In this document: positions 6,772 through 22,906 of the stretch, piece after piece | Numbering within the stretch: position 1 is the first letter of the stretch | How the letters are laid out: each line of letters starts with the position of its first letter | Source of the DNA: a virus | IMG/VR virus record: IMGVR_UViG_3300018405_000062 | Location: 1 to 23,215 of that record | Strand: one strand, 5' to 3' | DNA: 23,215 bases | Translations under genes and position numbers: made by a program | Notes under the pieces: model-generated | Told to the model about the DNA's origin: nothing | Seen by the model: only the letters and a program-made list of their open reading frames with translations | Databases searched by the model: none

Positions 6772-6796
6772 CCGGCCGGGCAAAAAGCCCGGCCGG
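6772..6796 (-). other. Perfect 10-bp intergenic hairpin
   Basis: CCGGCCGGGC (6772-6781) and GCCCGGCCGG (6787-6796) pair perfectly around a five-base loop (TTTTT on the transcribed strand). It sits between the 155-aa and 260-aa genes and just before a strong ribosome site. It has no trailing U-run, so I read it as an mRNA stability/processing hairpin or a weak attenuator rather than a full terminator. Confidence 0.6.
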
Positions 6797-12339: not shown

Positions 12340-13794
12340 TCACAAATTTGCCGCGCGTTGCTGGCCCCGGCCAGAGGAGTAACTCATAGCCCTGGCCATG
12401 CGCGCGCGTTGAGACATTTTTTTCCGCCTATCCAACCCTTTGACGTTTTCATAGGGAAACAGCACCGCAAGCATATAAAGCAGTGCATCGCCAGGGTGGC
12501 TGAACTGGTTTTTCACCGGCATGGTGCCGATGACATTGCCGTTATTGTCCACCTTCCAATGCCACCCCCCGTTTAGCGCACGGTGCAGCACGTATGCGCT
12601 GCGTGATAATTCCACCAGCGGCAGGCCGTTTGTGGCGAGCTTGGAAAATGCGGTGACCGCCGGATTCACCCGGTTTTCCCATCGCGTCGGGCCGGGCTCA
12701 AACCGGGTATGCAGAAGATCCTCAATCACGCGGGCGGCGGATTGCAGCGTGGAGCTCTGATCCGGGGTGCGCGCGGACGGATCTCCGATATCGCGCCAAT
12801 CCTGGATCATGTCTTTATATTTAGGGCTTGCCAGAAGCGGCTTGACGTGCATCTCGATTAGCTCGCGCGGCCCGATATTGGTATCTGTGCACACGTCATG
12901 GATGATCAGGCGGCCCGGCGGGATGAGCTGGCCGATCACACAGGCCGGAGAATGATATGAGTCCCACCCGCGAATTCCCACCGCGCCCGGGATCACCGGC
13001 AGATCCTCGGTTTCCCGGAAATGTGTGGACGGCCGGTAGGTTTTGACCACGGGCACGCCTTGGCACACCGCTGCGGCCCGGCCTTCGACATACCTGGTAT
13101 ACTTTCCGGGATCGTTTTGAAACGCCGCAATATTGGCCGCCCTGGCTAGTTTGTTGAGCTTCTGGTTTTCCCCGCGCGGGATTTTAAACACCGAAAGATG
13201 AATTTCTGCCCCGGAATCCGGGTCTCGGGCCAGCACTCTGGGCCCGTGCGAGACTTCTTCTGTCCAGTGATCCTCATCCGCCGGATTCTGGGTGACCTGA
13301 ACGCGCAGAGTTGTGCCTGCCTGGCGCGCGGCCCGGGCAATCGACATATCAAACACCCCGCGCGGTAGCCCGGCATTGGCCTTTTCAATAATCGGGGCGG
13401 GTTCTTCCAACCAGATAATTGCATACTGCGGCCCCTGCAGCTTAGACATGGAGGCCGGATCGTCAATGCCGAATAAATCCATTTCCACCTTTGGCTGGGA
13501 ATGGATAACCATTTTCTTGTAATCGTCGTGAAATGTAACCAGGTTGCCCAGCATCTGCTTGATATCCGGGGCGGTGGAGATCTTGATGTTCTGGTGGGTG
13601 TCACGAATCAGCGCACCGCGGATATCCCTGCCGCATCGCTGGGCATGGGCAATCAGGCCGCCTACACCGGCATAAGTTTTTCCTTCGCCCATAGGCCCCA
13701 TAAGCATAACCACATGTGCCTCGGAAAAAACAAAATCCTCCTGGGTCGGGGAAAATTCAAAAACAAAATCATTATTCTGTATGGCCTGGCCCAT
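12340..13794 (-). CDS. terL: Terminase large subunit (ATPase-nuclease)
   Basis: This 484-aa protein is the DNA-packaging motor. The N-terminal ATPase shows Walker A GPMGEGKT (residues 33-40), Walker B IIWLEE (126-131) and the coupling motif TQNP (168-171). The C-terminal RNase H-like nuclease shows its acidic residues in GWDSY (Asp278), DIGDPSA (Asp338) and FSHPGDALLY (Asp436). All key residues are present, so it should be active. It acts with the small subunit encoded just upstream (stop and start abut, TAAATG) and the portal downstream. ATG 13794 has GGGAGG at an 8-nt spacing. The length is normal for the family. Confidence 0.95.
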   Translation of the reverse strand: MGQAIQNNDFVFEFSPTQEDFVFSEAHVVMLMGPMGEGKTYAGVGGLIAHAQRCGRDIRGALIRDTHQNIKISTAPDIKQMLGNLVTFHDDYKKMVIHSQPKVEMDLFGIDDPASMSKLQGPQYAIIWLEEPAPIIEKANAGLPRGVFDMSIARAARQAGTTLRVQVTQNPADEDHWTEEVSHGPRVLARDPDSGAEIHLSVFKIPRGENQKLNKLARAANIAAFQNDPGKYTRYVEGRAAAVCQGVPVVKTYRPSTHFRETEDLPVIPGAVGIRGWDSYHSPACVIGQLIPPGRLIIHDVCTDTNIGPRELIEMHVKPLLASPKYKDMIQDWRDIGDPSARTPDQSSTLQSAARVIEDLLHTRFEPGPTRWENRVNPAVTAFSKLATNGLPLVELSRSAYVLHRALNGGWHWKVDNNGNVIGTMPVKNQFSHPGDALLYMLAVLFPYENVKGLDRRKKMSQRARMARAMSYSSGRGQQRAANL

Positions 13795-14454
13795 TTACTC
13801 TTCCTCCCGAACCAGGCGCAGCCGGCGCTTTCCGTCAACCGGCGGCCTTTTGCCGGCATTGTCCGGATCATCTTCGCCCGCGGCCTGGCGGGTTAAAAAC
13901 ACGATCCGTCCCTTTTGATCGTCATCGAGTAGACCGGCCTTGGACAACTTGGTCTCAATGATTTTATGTGCCATCCGCATAGCAGCCAGGCGCTGTTCCT
14001 GCCGGCGATCGTCTTCCTGGATATAAAAACAGGTTTGTTTGATCATCCATCGGATCACCCCTCTTTGTTTTTCCGGGTCCGTGGCTTCATCCATTTGCTG
14101 CCGCCACTTGGGAAACTCCCCGGAGATCCGCTCGGCAGCCGCGGCCACTCGTTCGGTGTGACTGGCCCCGGCTTCTCTCGACCAACCCAGGACCATTTTT
14201 TCCATTTCTTCAAGCGCATCCAGGTCGTCTGGCACCACGCGGTTGACATGGTCCTGGATTTTATGAAATGCCTCATCCTGGGCCGCGCTCCGGATCCTTG
14301 CCATATACCGGCCCACAGTAGCCTCGGACAAATCCGCACCATAATCAGACTGCAGCCGCTCAGTCATCTCGGCCCTGGTGGTTATCCCTTCTGCCATGAG
14401 GCTCTGGACTGTATCGGAGAGTCCGAGTTGCTCGATTTTGCAGGTTTTCGGCAT
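13795..14454 (-). CDS. terS: Terminase small subunit-like DNA-binding protein
   Basis: This 219-aa protein sits directly before the large subunit. Residues about 5-55 form a helix-turn-helix (KIEQLGLSDTVQSLMAEGIT, then TRAEMTERL and LSEATVGRYMARI) resembling the DUF3486/Mu gp27-type small terminase N-terminus. The rest is helical and charged (residues about 75-180), fitting oligomerisation, and the last 35 residues are a basic tail. It would recognise the packaging site and stimulate the large subunit. ATG 14454 has AAAGGA at a 10-nt spacing; that site can be paired in a small hairpin (see 14465-14486). Confidence 0.8.
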   Translation of the reverse strand: MPKTCKIEQLGLSDTVQSLMAEGITTRAEMTERLQSDYGADLSEATVGRYMARIRSAAQDEAFHKIQDHVNRVVPDDLDALEEMEKMVLGWSREAGASHTERVAAAAERISGEFPKWRQQMDEATDPEKQRGVIRWMIKQTCFYIQEDDRRQEQRLAAMRMAHKIIETKLSKAGLLDDDQKGRIVFLTRQAAGEDDPDNAGKRPPVDGKRRLRLVREEE

Positions 14455-14606: not shown

Positions 14607-16118
14607 TTACTTGACAGGCTCTGCGGGCACGACCCCGAGAGTTTTATAGGTGGATATTCGTTTGCGCAGCGAGGTTTTGAAAAACGGGTGGGCATCGCTG
14701 TATTCAAAAACCTGCCCCCCGGACTTGACATGGCGCACCAGGGTGGCGGCTGTGTCTTTATACTTAAACGGGGTTATCACAAAAACCGCATCCACCGGCG
14801 AAATTTCCAACGCGGCAGCAGTTTTTGTGGTGGTCATCAACACACAGATATCCCCGGATTCAAACCGGGCCTCGGCACGCTTTTTTGCCCCGTCCTTGGT
14901 GCGGCCGGTAACAATCTCGGCATCCCGGAACTGCTCGGAAAGATGCGCGGAAATATCGGTTAAATGCCGGGTCCGGACGGAAACCACCAGCACGCGGGTA
15001 GAGTTGGCCACCACAGACAAGACGTCCGCGGTAATCTGCTTGTTTCGCAGTTCGTCTTCACATAGCTGCTGCAGTAGGGAGTCATAATCCTCGCCGGAAT
15101 ACGCTGTTTCTGTGTGAAAAACCTGCAGTACCGGCGGAGTGTCATGGTTTTTTACCTCCGGGACCTGGTATCGGATCGGACCGCAAAAAAGCGCCATCAT
15201 TTGTGTTAACCCGTCTTCACGCTCAACCCGCTCGGCGAGGCCGGTGATATACCGGGTGGCCATGGCCCAGCAGATCTGGTAAAAAATCTTCACATTGGCC
15301 GTATCGCACCGGTCCACCACCAGGTGACCCACCTGTATATCGTCAAGGCATTTATACAAACTTCTATCAATACCCACCACGACAGCAGCCGCGGACTGCC
15401 GGTGCTGGTCGCCCACAAGGCCAACATCTTCCACATCAAGATCGGTGTATCGGAGTAGAGCGTCTCGCCATTGATACAACTGGTACTTGTGCTTGACCAC
15501 GATCAGGGTTTTTTCACCCCGGGCGGCAATCAGGGCGCAGGTGATTAAAAAACCGCTATCCCCCGTTGCCCCCAAAATATTATAGCGTTTTTTCCACAAA
15601 GCTCGAAAAGCCTCAGACACTACCGGTTCCATATCTTTCCCAAATAACACAACCCGCGACATCGGCACGGAAATGGTATGATCATCCAGGTAAACAGGGA
15701 TTTTTCGCGCCTGAAAAAAATCAATCAGCCACCGCAGCCCGGCACGTGGAAAACAGATCCGGTTTGCATCATCCACGTAATAAGCATACAGATATTTCTC
15801 CGGAGGCTGCAGGGAATGATACCGAAGCCCCCGGCGCCAGGCCGGGTTGATAAACGACGCGGCCCGGCGCAGATCCGCGGCCGCGGCTTCTGGTAAAACA
15901 TCCAGGGACACCCGGGCTGAGGCATCCACCCGGATCTCCACGGGGCCGACCCCGGAAACCGCGCCGGTATTATCAACCACAGAATCCGCTTTTCCCACAC
16001 CCCGCCGAGCATCCTGGCTTATTCCATGGTTCCCTGGGTCCCGCTCCCGCTCCCGCTTGACCGCAGGATCCGATCCGGGCCGGCCGTACTTGTTTAATAA
16101 CCGATCAACACCCATCAT
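14607..16118 (-). CDS. SF2 DEAD/DEAH helicase-like protein with eroded catalytic motifs
   Basis: This intact 503-aa frame keeps the skeleton of an XPB-like SF2 helicase of the kind found in phage and TOTE-type proteins. Residues 84-100 (RRAASFINPAWRRGLRY) match the usual pre-helicase region, 204-218 (TLIVVKHKYQLYQWR) match motif Ia, 302-319 (DGLTQMMALFCGPIRYQV) match the segment after motif III, and 474-494 match the C-terminal end (KRISTYKTLG). The catalytic positions are lost: motif I is GATGDSGF (183-190) instead of G-x-G-K-T; motif II is VDRCD (268-272) instead of DEC/AH; motif III is ITGLAER (291-297) instead of TATP; motif VI lacks its arginine pattern. Residues 1-60 are poorly ordered. 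It should not hydrolyse ATP and may be a structural or decoy protein. ATG 16118 follows GGGGGGAAAG; a second ATG is adjacent. Confidence 0.78.
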   Translation of the reverse strand: MMGVDRLLNKYGRPGSDPAVKRERERDPGNHGISQDARRGVGKADSVVDNTGAVSGVGPVEIRVDASARVSLDVLPEAAAADLRRAASFINPAWRRGLRYHSLQPPEKYLYAYYVDDANRICFPRAGLRWLIDFFQARKIPVYLDDHTISVPMSRVVLFGKDMEPVVSEAFRALWKKRYNILGATGDSGFLITCALIAARGEKTLIVVKHKYQLYQWRDALLRYTDLDVEDVGLVGDQHRQSAAAVVVGIDRSLYKCLDDIQVGHLVVDRCDTANVKIFYQICWAMATRYITGLAERVEREDGLTQMMALFCGPIRYQVPEVKNHDTPPVLQVFHTETAYSGEDYDSLLQQLCEDELRNKQITADVLSVVANSTRVLVVSVRTRHLTDISAHLSEQFRDAEIVTGRTKDGAKKRAEARFESGDICVLMTTTKTAAALEISPVDAVFVITPFKYKDTAATLVRHVKSGGQVFEYSDAHPFFKTSLRKRISTYKTLGVVPAEPVK

Positions 16119-16221
16119 CTTTCCCCCCGGGTTGGCGCGTGAACGTTTTTACCCTGTGTGCACACCAAAGTCACACCCGTGTCACGCGATAAATACTGAA
16201 AACAATTAAAAAAAATCCTAC

Positions 16222-16366
16222 TGTGAACGGTGTGAACGCTTTTTTTACAAAAACATAAAAAAATATTTTCCATTTTTTTAATCATCCAAATCAATTTGGC
16301 GATTTGCAGATTAAGAAATTTCAAATGCTAAAGGTCTTTTAAAAAAGCGTTCACACCGTTCACACC
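16222..16366. repeat. 24-bp perfect inverted repeat flanking AT-rich DNA
   Basis: The arm at 16222-16245 (two tandem 9-mers, TGTGAACGG and TGTGAACGC, then a T-run) is repeated in exact inverted form at 16343-16366. The 97-bp core between them is strongly AT-rich. The arms could form a cruciform or bind one protein symmetrically. Confidence 0.75.
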
Positions 16367-16368
16367 CT

Positions 16369-16411
16369 ATATATATATATATATAAATATAAAATATTAT
16401 TATATATAATA
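16369..16411. other. TA-rich tract, candidate DNA-unwinding element
   Basis: About 43 bp are composed almost only of A and T, starting with alternating TA dinucleotides, directly beside the inverted-repeat arm and before two more GTGAAC copies. This juxtaposition is typical of replication origins, but a curved regulatory region is also possible. Confidence 0.5.
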
Positions 16412-16623
16412 CTCTTTTTCCCTGTGAACACGCCCCGTGACACCCTGTGAACACCTTGGGGTGGGTGTTCACACCCCGCGGCCCCGTTTTAGATTATGCT
16501 GCACTTATCTGAACCTCCAAAAACACAGCAAGACCAATTAAACAAAAATCCCGATTTTCTTTAAAAATCCCATACACACCATTATATAAGGGGGGCGGGG
16601 CGCGATCCCCCGGTTTGCGATTT

Positions 16624-16662
16624 CGCCCGGTCCCGGGGTCCCCCTCCCCCCGGGACCGGGCG
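16624..16662 (-). terminator. Perfect 15-bp GC-rich hairpin after the recombinase
   Basis: Arms at 16624-16638 and 16648-16662 pair perfectly over 15 bp around a 9-nt pyrimidine/purine loop, starting 5 nt after the recombinase stop. There is no U-run, so it is not a canonical Rho-independent terminator. It would still block RNase or polymerase progress and may insulate the origin-like array from recombinase transcription. Confidence 0.55.
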
Positions 16663-16667
16663 CCAGT

Positions 16668-17351
16668 CTATTCCGCTCCGCGCTGGGCCAGCCAGTGTGA
16701 AAGATTCTGCACGCTCGTGCCGTACTTCTTTGCGACAAATGTTTTTGTGGACCCATTGGCCAGTAGTGCCTGGATCTCATCGACGTGTGCGTCCAGCTTA
16801 CTCTTACCCGGACCCGGCCGCCGGCCGAGCTTCACGCCGGCCGCGCGCTTGGCTGCCAGGGCTTCGCGCGTTCGCTCCGATATCAAGTCCCGCTCCACTT
16901 CTGCCATCATAGCCATGACCGTGGATATAATCTTGGATTGAATATTATCTGCCAGCTCCCAGCCGCCCTTAACCGCATAAATGCAGGCGCCGGCTGACTT
17001 GGCTGCCTGCAGGATTTCCAGTATCTCGATCATGGATCTGCCCAGCCGCGAAAGCTCCGGTACGATCAACCTATCACCGGCACCCAGGCCAGCGACCACG
17101 TCGCCGAGTTTTCGCTCGCGCCATGGCTTTTTCCCGGAGACTTTCTCCTCCACGAATTCCACACGGCCAAACCCCCGGTCTTGTGCAAATTGCAGCACGT
17201 CAGCCCTGAATTTGTATAGATCCTGGTCTGCCGTGGATACGCGGAGATATCCGATATTTCGGGCAGCGCGCACATTTTCAGCCGGTTGCCCGCTGCCGGC
17301 GTCCTGGTCCGCGTCGGCTGCCGAACCTGTTTTTTGCCCTGTTTTTTTCAT
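16668..17351 (-). CDS. Serine recombinase (small resolvase/invertase family)
   Basis: This 227-aa protein has a full catalytic domain. YLRVST (residues 35-40) carries the nucleophile Ser39 with Arg37, LSRLGRS (100-106) carries Arg102 and Arg105, and the E-helix region reads ERDLISERTREALAAKRAAG followed by LGRRPG. A short helix-turn-helix at about 203-225 (TKTFVAKKYGTSVQNLSHWL) binds DNA. The first 30 residues are a disordered Gly/Gln/Asp-rich extension. The size is that of Tn3-type resolvases or Hin/Gin-type invertases, not large serine integrases. It could resolve genome multimers or invert a segment; inverted crossover sites were not found in the window. ATG 17351 has GGGGAGG 4 nt upstream, and a good minus-strand promoter lies about 60 nt upstream of it. 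Confidence 0.94.
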   Translation of the reverse strand: MKKTGQKTGSAADADQDAGSGQPAENVRAARNIGYLRVSTADQDLYKFRADVLQFAQDRGFGRVEFVEEKVSGKKPWRERKLGDVVAGLGAGDRLIVPELSRLGRSMIEILEILQAAKSAGACIYAVKGGWELADNIQSKIISTVMAMMAEVERDLISERTREALAAKRAAGVKLGRRPGPGKSKLDAHVDEIQALLANGSTKTFVAKKYGTSVQNLSHWLAQRGAE

Positions 17352-17888: not shown

Positions 17889-17917
17889 TTGACACCATGG
17901 CGCCATGGATTTATTTT
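17889..17917 (+). promoter_or_regulatory. Rightward early promoter
   Basis: A perfect TTGACA (-35, 17889-17894) and TATTTT (-10, 17912-17917, 4 of 6 matches) are separated by an ideal 17 bp. The first early gene starts 55 nt downstream. An AT-rich stretch upstream (17820-17885) could act as an UP element. Confidence 0.62.
17895..17908. promoter_or_regulatory. Operator candidate in the early promoter spacer
   Basis: CCATGGCGCCATGG is a perfect 14-bp palindrome lying wholly between -35 and -10. A dimeric repressor bound here would block RNA polymerase. Similar ACACCATG words recur at 17938-17948 and in the intergenic elements. Confidence 0.55.
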
Positions 17918-17971
17918 AGATCCAGAAGGACACCACGACACCATGACACTAAAAATCTAAAGGAGGATATC

Positions 17972-18226
17972 ATGAACATTTACCAACAAGCACTCATGGC
18001 ACAAAACGCATGCAACGGCGGCGGAATTATTAACAGCCTGCCGGCTATCGTGGAGGAGATTCGGGCGGAAGCCATTGCCGCAAAGGGAGACTGGAGCATA
18101 AGCGACATCAACGAGCACCCCGTGATCCAGCTCATAGCAGACAAACTCGTGGACCTTGCCGGCGTGCGAAGTATGGAAGCATACAGCCAAGCTTATGACA
18201 TTTGCGCAGCTCGCGCAGGCGCATGA
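17972..18226 (+). CDS. First early protein, 84 aa, unknown
   Basis: This 84-aa helical protein begins MNIYQQALMAQNACNGGGII and contains a second half with HPVIQLIADKLVDLAGV and MEAYSQAYDICAARAGA. The N-Y-x-x-A-x-x-x-Q-x-A-C-N pattern and the 'H-P-x-x-x-x-x-A-D-K-L' segment resemble a small family I have seen in phage and integrative-element early regions; its function is not known to me. ATG 17972 has AAAGGAGG 5 nt upstream. Longer in-frame starts lie within the promoter spacer and are rejected. It is the promoter-proximal gene of the early operon. Its TGA stop begins the first copy of the repeated intergenic element. Confidence 0.72.
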   Translation: MNIYQQALMAQNACNGGGIINSLPAIVEEIRAEAIAAKGDWSISDINEHPVIQLIADKLVDLAGVRSMEAYSQAYDICAARAGA

Positions 18227-18280
18227 TGCAATGCCAGGGCCCGGCGCCGGAGGAACCGGGCCCGCTCATGGCACTATGAC
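18224..18280 (+). repeat. Structured intergenic element, copy A
   Basis: The element starts with the upstream stop in TGATGCAATGCCA. Outer stem: TGCCA (18232-18236) with TGGCA (18269-18273). Inner stem: GGGCCCGG (18237-18244) with CCGGGCCC (18256-18263). The 11-nt loop contains GGAGGA, and a 5-nt bulge (GCTCA) lies on the 3' side. It is one of four copies. Confidence 0.8.
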
Positions 18281-18306
18281 CTGCAACTATAACCGAGGAG
18301 GGCACC

Positions 18307-18480
18307 ATGAACCCTATGACAGAACACGTAAAGAAAAACATAGCAAAGAGGCTCGAGAGAAAACTTAAAAAATTCGGAAAAGAAAATCCTACAAAAACAC
18401 CGTATTGGATGGCGCAGAGGGGAGTAGAAATTTTGATTAAAGGCGGTTATGTAAATAACAGAAATATTTACAGTTATTAA
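18307..18480 (+). CDS. 57-aa basic protein, unknown
   Basis: This 57-aa, Lys/Arg-rich protein begins MNPMTEHVKKNIAKRLERKL, continues through KKFGKENPTKTPYWMAQRG and ends NNRNIYSY. The basic amphipathic first half could bind nucleic acid or act as a small modulator, but no family is recognised. ATG 18307 has GAGGAGGG 4 nt upstream. The region is noticeably more AT-rich than its neighbours, a possible sign of separate origin. It follows copy A of the repeat by 26 nt and has no repeat after it. Confidence 0.62.
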   Translation: MNPMTEHVKKNIAKRLERKLKKFGKENPTKTPYWMAQRGVEILIKGGYVNNRNIYSY

Positions 18481-18517
18481 TAGAGGCAATATTCGAGAAA
18501 AATAGAAGGAGAACGCT

Positions 18518-18733
18518 ATGAGAATCGTATACCTACCGGCCATTGAAAAAAGAGTTTCACTTAAGTCCTATATTGCCGGCATTAAAAAAGCCAAAGCAAA
18601 CCCGGAAGCGACTTTCCCGCATGGCTTAACCTGCTGGTGGAGCTGCACTGGCGAAGAGATCATGGGCCAGTTTATGCGAGGGCTGCACGATAGAATCAAT
18701 CAAGCAATCCCATACGTGCAGCGGGGATCCTGA
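18518..18733 (+). CDS. Conserved-looking 71-aa early protein
   Basis: This 71-aa protein begins MRIVYLPAIEKRVSLKSYIA, then has IKKAKANPEATFPHGLTCWW and a C-terminal EEIMGQFMRGLHDRINQAI. The order 'Y-hydrophobic-P...KANP...GLT-x-WW...G-x-E-I-x-x-Q-F-x-x-G-x-x-D-R-I-N' is one I associate with a small phage protein family of unknown function. ATG 18518 has AAGGAG 7 nt upstream. The TGA stop is the first base triplet of copy B. The role may lie in early takeover, but nothing in the sequence shows it. Confidence 0.74.
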   Translation: MRIVYLPAIEKRVSLKSYIAGIKKAKANPEATFPHGLTCWWSCTGEEIMGQFMRGLHDRINQAIPYVQRGS

Positions 18734-18790
18734 TGCAATGCCAGGGCGTCTGGAGGAGGCAGGCGCCCGCGCATGGCACCACGAACCCCC
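18731..18790 (+). repeat. Structured intergenic element, copy B
   Basis: It starts at the upstream TGA. Outer stem: TGCCA (18739-18743) with TGGCA (18774-18778). Inner stem: GGGCGTCTG (18744-18752) with CAGGCGCCC (18760-18768), a different sequence from the other copies but again fully paired (one G-U). Loop GAGGAGG. Confidence 0.8.
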
Positions 18791-18815
18791 AACACCAAGA
18801 GAAAGGAGAAGGTCC

Positions 18816-19385
18816 ATGAGTTATGAAATCGTAAAGGGAATCAAAATTGACGAGGCCGCCGGCAAGGTTTTTATTAAGGCTTCATCCAACAATGTCATCC
18901 CGAAGCATTTTGACTGGTGGGAAGCCCCGGTAATTTCTGAAATCTTGCACCAAAAAGGCAAGGAGGAAGTGGAGAAAGTTATCCTGCTGGAATACTGGGA
19001 GGGCAACCTGCAAGGCGGTGATAACCTTTATGACAAAACAGTGCGGTACTACAAGCACAGACTCCCGTATAAATGGAACAATACCGGGAAAGCCGAGGAA
19101 AGAGGAAAAACAAATCGTTTCGGGTACTTGATCGAGTTCACCACGGAAGAAGTCAAGGAAGGTTTATACCAAAAATATCTTGCTTACAAACAGCGTGATA
19201 TGTCTGCACGTTTCTGTATCAGCTGGAAGGATATGTATATCCGGAAAAGGGCAGGTAGGCACCTTTATTTAGCGTGGGACCAAAAAAGCGCCAAACACTT
19301 CAATAGCTACGAAGACGCCTTTGTTTATGCCTTAAATTTTACCCAGAACCCAGAAGAACTCATAGAAAGAGTTATTAATTCATGA
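18816..19385 (+). CDS. Unknown early protein, 189 aa
   Basis: This 189-aa protein begins MSYEIVKGIKIDEAAGKVFI and contains a WW pair (FDWWEAPVISEIL), an EYWEGNLQGGDN stretch, a basic LPYKWNNTGKAEERGKTNRF segment and a helical C-terminus. It has a mixed alpha/beta pattern with many aromatic residues. I do not recognise the family and see no catalytic motif or membrane segment. ATG 18816 has AAAGGAGAAGG upstream; the longer in-frame start at 18738 would place the repeat element inside the protein and is rejected. The TGA stop opens copy C. Confidence 0.68.
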   Translation: MSYEIVKGIKIDEAAGKVFIKASSNNVIPKHFDWWEAPVISEILHQKGKEEVEKVILLEYWEGNLQGGDNLYDKTVRYYKHRLPYKWNNTGKAEERGKTNRFGYLIEFTTEEVKEGLYQKYLAYKQRDMSARFCISWKDMYIRKRAGRHLYLAWDQKSAKHFNSYEDAFVYALNFTQNPEELIERVINS

Positions 19386-19442
19386 TGCAATGCCAGGGCC
19401 CGGCTTGGAGGAACCGGGCCCGCGCATGGCACCATGACACCA
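19383..19442 (+). repeat. Structured intergenic element, copy C
   Basis: TGA of the upstream gene opens the element. Outer stem: TGCCA (19391-19395) with TGGCA (19427-19431). Inner stem: GGGCCCGG (19396-19403) with CCGGGCCC (19414-19421). The 10-nt loop has GGAGGA, and a GCGCA bulge (19422-19426) follows. The 3' tail ATGACACC is shared with copy D. Confidence 0.82.
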
Positions 19443-19465
19443 CAAACCAAAGAAAGGAGGGCCCC

Positions 19466-19735
19466 ATGGGTTGGAAAATCACAAAAGACCATATCAACCG
19501 GAAATGCGGAGAGAAAACCATGGAGGGAAAAGGATACGGAACTATCAAGGACAGGCCCACCGTGCCCTTTCGCCTGCACGATGATGACGGCGAGCTTTGT
19601 TTCGAGGGCATCATTGCAACGGACTGGCTGGAAGGCTTTGCGGATTACGCCTTTGCGCCTCTTGACTGGGCACAATCGGACTACGGCTGCACGGAAATGA
19701 AATACAAGCAAAACGGAAAATGGGAAACATTGTAA
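19466..19735 (+). CDS. Conserved-looking 89-aa early protein
   Basis: This 89-aa protein begins MGWKITKDHI and contains the core VPFRLHDDDGELCFEG followed by FAPLDWAQSDYGCTEMKY, ending NGKWETL. The 'F-R-L-x-D-D-D-G-E-L' and 'Y-G-C-T-E' pattern is familiar from small phage and integrative-element proteins of unknown function. It looks like a compact beta-sheet protein. ATG 19466 has AAAGGAGGG at a 4-nt spacing. An upstream in-frame ATG at 19382 would translate copy C and is unlikely. It is followed by a 9-bp perfect hairpin. Confidence 0.75.
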   Translation: MGWKITKDHINRKCGEKTMEGKGYGTIKDRPTVPFRLHDDDGELCFEGIIATDWLEGFADYAFAPLDWAQSDYGCTEMKYKQNGKWETL

Positions 19736-19740
19736 AAGTA

Positions 19741-19764
19741 GGCGCCGGGAAAGGGCCCGGCGCC
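19741..19764 (+). other. Perfect 9-bp intergenic hairpin (type II)
   Basis: GGCGCCGGG (19741-19749) and CCCGGCGCC (19756-19764) pair around the loop AAAGGG, just after the previous stop. No U-run follows, so it looks like a stability/processing hairpin like the one at 21587. Confidence 0.65.
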
Positions 19765-19793
19765 CATGAACCCCAAACAAAGGAGACACCACC

Positions 19794-20132
19794 ATGAGCA
19801 TGGCACCGGAAGAACTTAAACTTTTTTGGTTTAGCGATGAAATCGTCCGCCTGGTGAACGAGCGTGACGAAATGACCACTTCTGACATGCAGGGCATAGC
19901 CGGCGCCCTGGCGAGAAAGATCTACCAGGCAGGCAAAGAGGCCGGCCAGGTGACCGGACTGGAAATGGAGACTGACCCGCCCGAAGTTTACCCGGAAGAT
20001 GCAGATGAATGTACGAGCCCACACGGGCACGAATTTGTCTGCACTGGCACCGCATACGGCGGAGACGACGAGCGCTATATGGGCGAGGGGCGGTCTTACT
20101 GTATGCACTGCGGCGCCGACGGCGACGCTTAA
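19794..20132 (+). CDS. 112-aa protein with C-terminal Cys/His metal site
   Basis: This 112-aa protein has a helical N-terminal half (residues 1-55) and an acidic linker. Its C-terminal Cys/His module has Cys73, His77, His79, Cys83, Cys103 and Cys106 (the last two in YCMHCGADGDA). The tail 'CTGTAYGGDD...GEGRSYC-x-x-CGADGDA' is a recurring ending in small phage proteins and probably binds zinc. Function unknown. ATG 19794 has GGAG at an 8-nt spacing in the leader AAAGGAGACACCAC, which recurs before the next gene. A second ATG two codons in is possible. Confidence 0.74.
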   Translation: MSMAPEELKLFWFSDEIVRLVNERDEMTTSDMQGIAGALARKIYQAGKEAGQVTGLEMETDPPEVYPEDADECTSPHGHEFVCTGTAYGGDDERYMGEGRSYCMHCGADGDA

Positions 20133-20158
20133 AATCCCAAAGCGAAAGGAGACACCAC

Positions 20159-20458
20159 ATGACAGGAGCAAAAGCAACAACCCTTAATTGGAACACAACA
20201 GGGGAAGAATCCAGAAATATTCTGGCAATCGCCAGCCGGGCGGCGGCAAACAAACCAGAGCTCGACGAGCTGGAAGTGGCCATGGACATCACGGCCGTGC
20301 ACCTTAATGATCCGGCCGTGAATATCGACCTGGACCGCCTGCTTAACTTCGACAAATTTAACTTTATGCACGACATTCTGGGCATTAACCGGCATATCGA
20401 CCGGCAAAGCGGCCAGCTTTCAAATTGTTTCCTACCCAGATGCGCCCGGGGGAATTAG
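20159..20458 (+). CDS. Unknown early protein, 99 aa
   Basis: This 99-aa acidic helical protein contains LEVAMDITAVHLNDPAVNID and then LLNFDKFNFMHDILGINRHI, ending QSGQLSNCFLPRCARGN. The 'F-x-H-D-x-x-G-I-x-R-H-x-D-R-x-x-G-x-L' pattern resembles a small phage family of unknown function. ATG 20159 has AAAGGAG in the leader AAAGGAGACACCAC. The gene ends in three consecutive in-frame stops (TAG TAA TAG); the third aligns with the stop that opens the other repeat copies. The start in another ORF at 20009 overlaps the previous gene and is rejected. Confidence 0.72.
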   Translation: MTGAKATTLNWNTTGEESRNILAIASRAAANKPELDELEVAMDITAVHLNDPAVNIDLDRLLNFDKFNFMHDILGINRHIDRQSGQLSNCFLPRCARGN

Positions 20459-20461
20459 TAA

Positions 20462-20521
20462 TAGTGCAATGCCAGGGCCTGGCGCCGGAGGAACCAGGCC
20501 CGCGCATGGCACCATGACACC
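20462..20521 (+). repeat. Structured intergenic element, copy D
   Basis: It opens with TAG instead of TGA. Outer stem: TGCCA (20470-20474) with TGGCA (20507-20511). Inner stem: GGGCCTGG (20475-20482) with CCAGGCCC (20494-20501), a compensatory C-G to T-A change relative to copies A and C. Loop with GGAGGA; GCGCA bulge kept. Confidence 0.82.
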
Positions 20522-20544
20522 CAAAATCAAAGGAGGGAAGCCCT

Positions 20545-20883: not shown

Positions 20884-21189
20884 ATGGCATATCACGACGG
20901 AAAAAAGAAACTGGAAATCACTCCGATGACAGTGGGATATTTGGTGGAGTTAAACGACCCTGGTGGTCTCACTTATCTGACCACATACCCCATAGACCGC
21001 ATGGGTTGGAAGCTCACCTTTGACGGGGATTTAATTCACGCCCACATTGCAGATGGCTCATACTACGAAAGGAGGGAGGTATACCAAAAAATCAAGAATG
21101 ACAACTATTACAAGCACACCCGGATATATTATTACCAGGGGCGCTTGTATACCTGCATTAAATCCGAACTTATCGGCCCGGGCCGATAA
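20884..21189 (+). CDS. Unknown early protein, 101 aa
   Basis: This 101-aa protein is beta-rich and unusually Tyr-rich (GSYYERREVYQKIKNDNYYK, then RIYYYQGRLYTC). No motif or family is recognised. ATG 20884 has AGAGG at a 5-nt spacing and lies only 9 nt after the previous stop, with no intergenic repeat, so the two genes are probably translated together. Confidence 0.66.
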   Translation: MAYHDGKKKLEITPMTVGYLVELNDPGGLTYLTTYPIDRMGWKLTFDGDLIHAHIADGSYYERREVYQKIKNDNYYKHTRIYYYQGRLYTCIKSELIGPGR

Positions 21190-21586: not shown

Positions 21587-21616
21587 CCCGGCGCCGGGAA
21601 AGAGCCCGGCGCCGGG
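21587..21616 (+). other. Perfect 12-bp intergenic hairpin (type II)
   Basis: CCCGGCGCCGGG (21587-21598) and the same palindromic word (21605-21616) pair around AAAGAG. It shares the GGCGCCGGGAAAG core with the hairpin at 19741 and has no U-run. Confidence 0.65.
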
Positions 21617-22880: not shown

Positions 22881-22906
22881 CCCGGCCGGCACCAAAACCG
22901 GCCGGG
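22881..22906 (+). other. Perfect 9-bp intergenic hairpin
   Basis: CCCGGCCGG (22881-22889) and CCGGCCGGG (22898-22906) pair around an A-rich 8-nt loop between the LPD29 gene and the ribbon-helix-helix gene. It closely resembles the hairpin at 6772-6796 in the late block. Confidence 0.65.

Follow-up and report, generated by a model that had tools for sequence, protein, structure and literature searches.

The window studied here, i.e. the whole stretch of 23,215 nt at positions 1 to 23,215 of the IMG/VR record IMGVR_UViG_3300018405_000062, is a podovirus-like contig from an uncultured virus of bacteria. From position 17972 onwards its plus strand carries at least 12 small genes downstream of a TTGACA-type promoter, which are presumably transcribed as one polycistronic early message. 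We characterized a repeated element that is found at four of the 11 junctions of this early operon (copies A to D, Table 1). Three other junctions carry simpler GC-rich hairpins of 9–12 bp and the rest carry neither. Since the contig terminates within the early operon, further copies are possible.

All four copies share a 14-mer, TGCAATGCCAGGGC, which occurs exactly at 18227, 18734, 19386 and 20465 and on the plus strand only, in agreement with the original prediction of four copies with a common 5' end at early-gene junctions. When up to three mismatches were allowed, 13 matches to the 14-mer were found in the window compared to 4.4 expected, a number that none of 100 shuffles reached. With only A, C and D as input, a covariance model of the kind suggested as a check recovered copy B with E = 6.6e-11. 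The copies are real and exceed chance. As had been described, they open at a stop codon: the stop of the upstream gene directly adjoins the start of A, B and C, while D is preceded by three in-frame stops, TAG TAA TAG (20456–20464).

The fold proposed originally consisted of an inner stem of 8–9 bp with a GGAGGA loop, enclosed by an outer TGCCA/TGGCA stem with a 5-nt bulge. The inner part of this fold was retained, with GGAGGA located at the loop in 4/4 copies. For the outer part we found an alternative, in which UGC/GCA, an A.G mismatch, AUGC/GCAU and a 2x2 CA/GC internal loop lead to the same inner stem. The energy of the earlier fold is -21.8 to -23.4 kcal/mol, that of the alternative -25.1 to -26.7 kcal/mol in B, C and D. 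For these three copies the bulged fold was rejected, being 3.3 kcal/mol worse. The two folds are tied in A (-23.3 kcal/mol for the alternative), in which one pair of the alternative is lost to a U.

When folded together with its flanks, the hairpin grows beyond its conserved core in 4/4 copies, taking in the stop codon and the final codons of the upstream gene. The additional pairs link these codons and the stop with the leader of the next gene: GCAGG/CCUGC and CAUG/UAUG in A, GGGG/CCCC, UC/GA and UG/CA in B, UCAUG/CAUGA in C, and GU/AC and AU/AU in D. The outermost pairs are thereby built from sequence that differs between the copies. Outer pairing goes beyond that of shuffled sequences in A, B and C (P = 0.015, 0.04 and 0.002), and upon swapping the flanks between copies the real pairing took rank 2 of 24. 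The full hairpins comprise 22–25 bp over a span of 58–73 nt, begin 5–12 nt before the end of the stop codon and are interrupted by 1x1 mismatches and the 2x2 internal loop. Their number of base pairs exceeds that of shuffles in each copy (P 0.005–0.035).

The inner stems had been claimed to vary in sequence yet to remain paired, which holds: all pairs are kept in 4/4 copies. The stem of C equals that of A, and D differs from A by one two-sided change (C-G to U-A). In B, whose inner stem aligns poorly with those of the other copies, three pairs are changed on both sides relative to A, one is changed on one side only (C-G to U-G) and one pair is additional; the 5' arm of B forms only 5/8 pairs with the 3' arm of another copy. 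Four two-sided changes, the absence of any lost inner pair and the copy-specific outer pairing together support selection on the RNA structure, as had been suggested. The covariation is real but few in number, since it comes from two diverged stem sequences in one genome. Template switching, by concerted change of a DNA palindrome, could mimic it.

The repetition is not limited to the hairpin. The 32–36 nt leaders that lie 3' of the conserved cores are similar among the copies, and leaders C and D resemble the leader of the first gene of the operon at 74–76% over 34 nt. Because the leader is common to the copies as well, the data support that the entire stop-to-start region is a duplicated module of 80–86 nt placed between unrelated small genes, as the idea of a modular linker or cassette had implied.

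Table 1. Features of the early operon and neighbouring regions of the window, and late-junction hairpins of the related phage L008.
Feature	Position	Strand	Remarks
Junction hairpin A	18215–18284 (core 18227–18274)	+	25 bp, includes stop codon of gene 17972–18226
Leader A	18275–18306	+	32 nt with Shine-Dalgarno (SD) sequence, to ATG 18307
Junction hairpin B	18721–18790 (core 18734–18779)	+	25 bp, inner stem unlike A, fully paired
Leader B	18780–18815	+	36 nt with SD, to ATG 18816
Junction hairpin C	19380–19437 (core 19386–19432)	+	22 bp, UCAUG/CAUGA extension across stop codon
Leader C	19433–19465	+	33 nt with SD, to ATG 19466; resembles first leader of operon (17934–17967)
Junction hairpin D	20450–20522 (core 20465–20512)	+	24 bp, after triple stop; one two-sided inner-stem change
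Leader D	20513–20544	+	32 nt with SD, to ATG 20545; resembles first leader of operon
Putative early promoter (TTGACA-17-TATTTT) and first leader	17889–17971	+	ACACCATGACAC motifs, recurring in cassette leaders
Simple GC-rich junction hairpin	19741–19764	+	9 bp, loop AAAGGG, no U-tract
Simple GC-rich junction hairpin	21587–21616	+	12 bp, loop AAAGAG, no U-tract
Simple GC-rich junction hairpin	22881–22906	+	9 bp, no U-tract
Serine recombinase gene	16668–17351	-	encoded in window
L008 late-junction hairpin	12829–12932
L008 late-junction hairpin	13431–13510
L008 late-junction hairpin	13999–14125
L008 late-junction hairpin	15504–15584

The original prediction had assigned the SD-like loop a role in ribosome recruitment. 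The predicted unpaired fraction of the downstream ribosome-binding site (RBS) is 0.46–0.70 with the element and 0.44–0.65 without it, and the predicted openness drops only slightly if the 5' arm is occupied by a terminating ribosome. The GGAGGA loop lies about 55–60 nt before the start codon, and each downstream gene has its own SD. The element thus leaves the predicted openness of the RBS about unchanged, which argues against recruitment of ribosomes; a switch based on RBS sequestration was rejected. Translation of the element as part of the downstream protein, which would have contradicted an RNA role, was rejected as well: the downstream frame is closed in A and D and passes openly through B and C in different registers.

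In anatomy the element resembles the RNase III sites of phage T7, whose early transcript is cut at five sites (PMC4858673). Like the element, T7 sites are irregular junction hairpins without a U-tract, several of which lie over the upstream stop codon and are followed by the RBS of the next gene. As a yardstick, eight T7 sites (R0.3, R0.5, R1, R1.1, R1.3, R4.7, R6.5 and R18.5) were folded with the same code as the window copies; the positions that we take to be those of these sites lie within the folded spans. They yielded 17–25 bp over spans of 47–73 nt, with the stop codon inside the hairpin at R0.5, R1, R6.5 and R18.5. The stems of T7-type sites are irregular duplexes of about 20 bp (about two helical turns), a length which all four window hairpins reach with their 22–25 bp. 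The mismatches and the internal loop of the window stems also correspond to T7-type sites. T7-type sites lie between cistrons of a co-transcribed unit and are cut by RNase III at a fixed position; the window hairpins lie between genes that may form such a unit. There is no sequence relation to the T7 sites, and the element has a GC-rich inner stem and a conserved GGAGGA loop; the likeness is one of anatomy.

We therefore propose tentatively, with a judged probability of roughly 0.45, that the element serves as processing or stability punctuation of the early message, much like the T7 RNase III sites. It probably works like such a site, although we do not claim identity with one. Each junction cassette in the polycistronic early RNA would form a 22–25 bp irregular hairpin over the upstream stop codon, followed by an open leader with the SD of the next gene. 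Host RNase III would cut the hairpin, or the hairpin would block 3' exonucleases. A protective stem-loop would then close the 3' end of upstream messages, and downstream messages would begin with a free leader, such that the early genes could be expressed and decay semi-independently, as at T7 RNase III sites. Here, the repeats, the compensatory changes, the placement over the stop codon and the lack of a U-tract are seen in the sequence, and the fold and the open downstream RBS are predicted from it, whereas transcription as one operon, cleavage and stabilisation are what we infer.

Several observations weigh against punctuation of this kind. The clearly independent stem sequences number only two, all from one virus species, and the outer pairing of D is not above shuffles (P = 0.55). 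The internal loop of the window hairpins is a symmetric 2x2 loop, while it is asymmetric in several T7 sites. The T7 sites themselves were mostly not significant in the same shuffle test, so that this test does not identify such sites. Within the same operon, three other junctions have hairpins of only 9–12 bp, a length at which RNase III would not cleave efficiently, and some of the junctions lack a hairpin altogether. Finally, a pure cleavage model requires no conservation of the GGAGGA loop.

The invariance of GGAGGA next to varying inner stems would be explained if the element were an RNA operator: an RNA-binding protein of the phage or its host would bind the loop on its stem and jointly control the four genes that follow the copies. 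CsrA/RsmA sites likewise have AGGA as their core, presented in a hairpin loop, and AGGA is found in or at the loop in 4/4 copies, corresponding to the A(N)GGA feature of such sites. However, common descent can explain the loop identity among the four copies, and AGGA is missing from the loops of the simpler junction hairpins of the window (AAAGGG, AAAGAG, CACCAAAA) and from those of the related phage L012 (GAGA). Moreover, the downstream RBS is not covered by the hairpin, whereas CsrA/RsmA sites overlap or affect the RBS. Such an operator appears unlikely to us. Another reading is an RNA regulon specific to the phage, in which an early phage protein or an RNA-binding protein of the host would recognise the invariant loop, irrespective of the stem sequence, and tune the decay or translation of several early genes together, while upstream translation would gate the hairpin via the stop codon in the stem. 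We regard this regulon as doubtful.

The sharing of entire stop-to-start junctions by unrelated genes, together with the likeness of leaders C and D to the first leader, would also be expected of a DNA-level linker, through which small early genes are reshuffled by homologous recombination, with the fold being of lesser importance. Recombination favours identity, yet the stems diverged with their pairing kept, and the outermost pairs are formed by sequence that is not repeated. Among the loci reached via the pattern scan and the early proteins, none came from a related genome with exchanged genes. A linker of this type seems rather unlikely. The hairpin could instead act as a translation insulator that keeps terminating ribosomes off the next RBS and leaves this RBS unstructured without any cleavage. 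Its start at the stop codon, the end of the conserved core 32–36 nt before the next ATG and the predicted open RBS are in line with insulation; the RBS is, however, about equally open without the element, and other genes of the same operon manage without it, which leaves insulation quite unlikely. Repetitive extragenic palindromic (REP) sequences and bacterial interspersed mosaic elements (BIME) of enterobacteria are likewise hairpins between operon genes, some of which have a known stabilising role. A mobile REP-like palindrome, or a site of the serine recombinase encoded in the window, could account for a palindromic repeat in several copies. REP-type palindromes have many dispersed copies in both orientations, whereas the element has four copies on one strand, fixed exactly at stop codons, and none elsewhere in the window, in IMG/VR beyond one near-identical contig or in the genomes scanned. 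In addition, the related L007, L008 and L012 keep the recombinase (65–84%), but the element is absent from L008 and L012. We consider mobility, or a role as a recombination site, highly improbable. The same applies to transcription control by an intrinsic terminator, an attenuator or a cis-acting antiterminator: strong GC-rich hairpins do lie within the early operon, but no copy is followed by a U-tract (the sequence past the stem is GCGCAUGGCACC or similar), no plus-strand terminator was called at any element and a scan of the window gave no Rfam match above the gathering score.

Related phages carry junction hairpins of other sequence. L012, whose terminase is 66% identical, has three copies of CAGGGCCCGG-GAGA-CCGGGCCC on its early-gene strand, with 8–12 bp and located at gene junctions in two or three of the three cases, depending on gene calls. 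In L008 (terminase 77%) hairpins of 31–41 bp made of the inverted heptads GTGAGTN / NACTCAC are found 1–6 nt past late-gene stop codons, and its short early operon has no junction hairpins. This survey covers few genomes with rough gene calls, and only two of the L008 hairpins are counted when hairpins are defined more strictly. Of 17 junctions in BcepC6B and Y3, which served for comparison, one has a hairpin of at least 20 bp. A shared junction position with differing hairpin sequence is as expected if the structure at the junction matters, an impression gained from few genomes. The late-gene junctions of L014, which together with L008 is the closest relative, likewise carry 31–41 bp hairpins made of these inverted heptads. 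L015–L020 have other heptads (AATAACT, TTATTGG; in L019 also ATCCAGN), and in L032 and L033 arrays of the heptad GCGGAAN are scattered over many places (e.g. 15801–16545).

The only other carrier of the element that was found is contig L005 (IMGVR 3300018411), which was also the only match in an exact-pattern scan of IMG/VR. It is 99.965% identical over 11.6 kb, with four differences (17876, 22374, 22400 and 22410), none of which lies inside the elements. As L005 is the same virus, it provides no independent evidence. The exact-pattern scan of GTDB species genomes returned 59 single matches, of which none had the inner stem, while about 49 were expected by chance as estimated from base counts. 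Running the covariance model on 389 genomes of a Desulfobacteria-type class gave weak matches only, the best 15 being unrelated GC-rich hairpins. Loci reached via the early proteins were again L005 or distant DUF6874 phages without the element. A tRNA scan of the window was empty.

The minus strand of the window encodes a terminase, head-tail adaptor-like and internal virion proteins, a helicase and the serine recombinase. The terminase shares about 25% identity with podovirus terminases (e.g. BcepC6B) and up to 58% with prophage-like loci in 4/389 genomes of the class of a Desulfobacterales metagenome-assembled genome. The host may therefore be a desulfobacterial relative, which we regard as a lead and not as a result. 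Nearly all early genes are without known relatives, apart from DUF6874 (20159), a PHROG of unknown function (19466) and LPD29 (21673). Three related phages have tandem TTGACACCATGACACC-like motifs in their early promoter regions (window 17889–17955; L012 6070–5985, minus strand; L008 1932–1853, minus strand); these motifs are a possible operator for an early repressor. Further palindromic sequences were seen in the window. At 21170–21189 lies the palindrome TTATCGGCCCGGGCCGATAA, whose final bases are the stop codon of gene 20884–21189. On the minus strand, a perfect 15-bp hairpin with loop GGAGGGGGA and without a U-tract (16624–16662) directly follows the stop codon of the recombinase gene, and a perfect GC-rich 10-bp hairpin with loop UUUUU on the gene strand (6772–6796) is located at a late-gene junction.

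Repeats between small phage genes have been described before. Start-associated sequences (SAS) of cluster K mycobacteriophages are 13-bp motifs at the RBS, and the extended start-associated sequences (ESAS) are inverted repeats upstream of start codons (PMC3203893). The original prediction had drawn an analogy to SAS, which turned out to be positional only: both are short repeats at junctions of non-structural genes. SAS lie at the RBS, whereas the element lies at the stop codon, with its core ending 32–36 nt before the start codon and without a 13-bp RBS motif. The authors of the ESAS study rejected mRNA hairpins for these repeats and found that their variation does not support RNA pairing (PMC3203893); the variation of the element, by contrast, keeps the pairing. 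Membership in SAS/ESAS was therefore rejected. Microbacterium phages of cluster EG and mycobacteriophages of cluster O also carry several dyad repeats per genome at the junctions of small genes. These repeats are 17–18 bp long with arms that are invariant in cluster O, while the 22–25 bp stems of the window vary with compensation.

Intergenic phage repeats such as ESAS are still unexplained, and RNA folding was rejected for ESAS. Here we describe a repeated junction element with variation in favour of RNA folding across the stop codon; relatives of its carrier use junction hairpins that are unrelated in sequence. This points to more than one origin of T7-style punctuation in phage messages.

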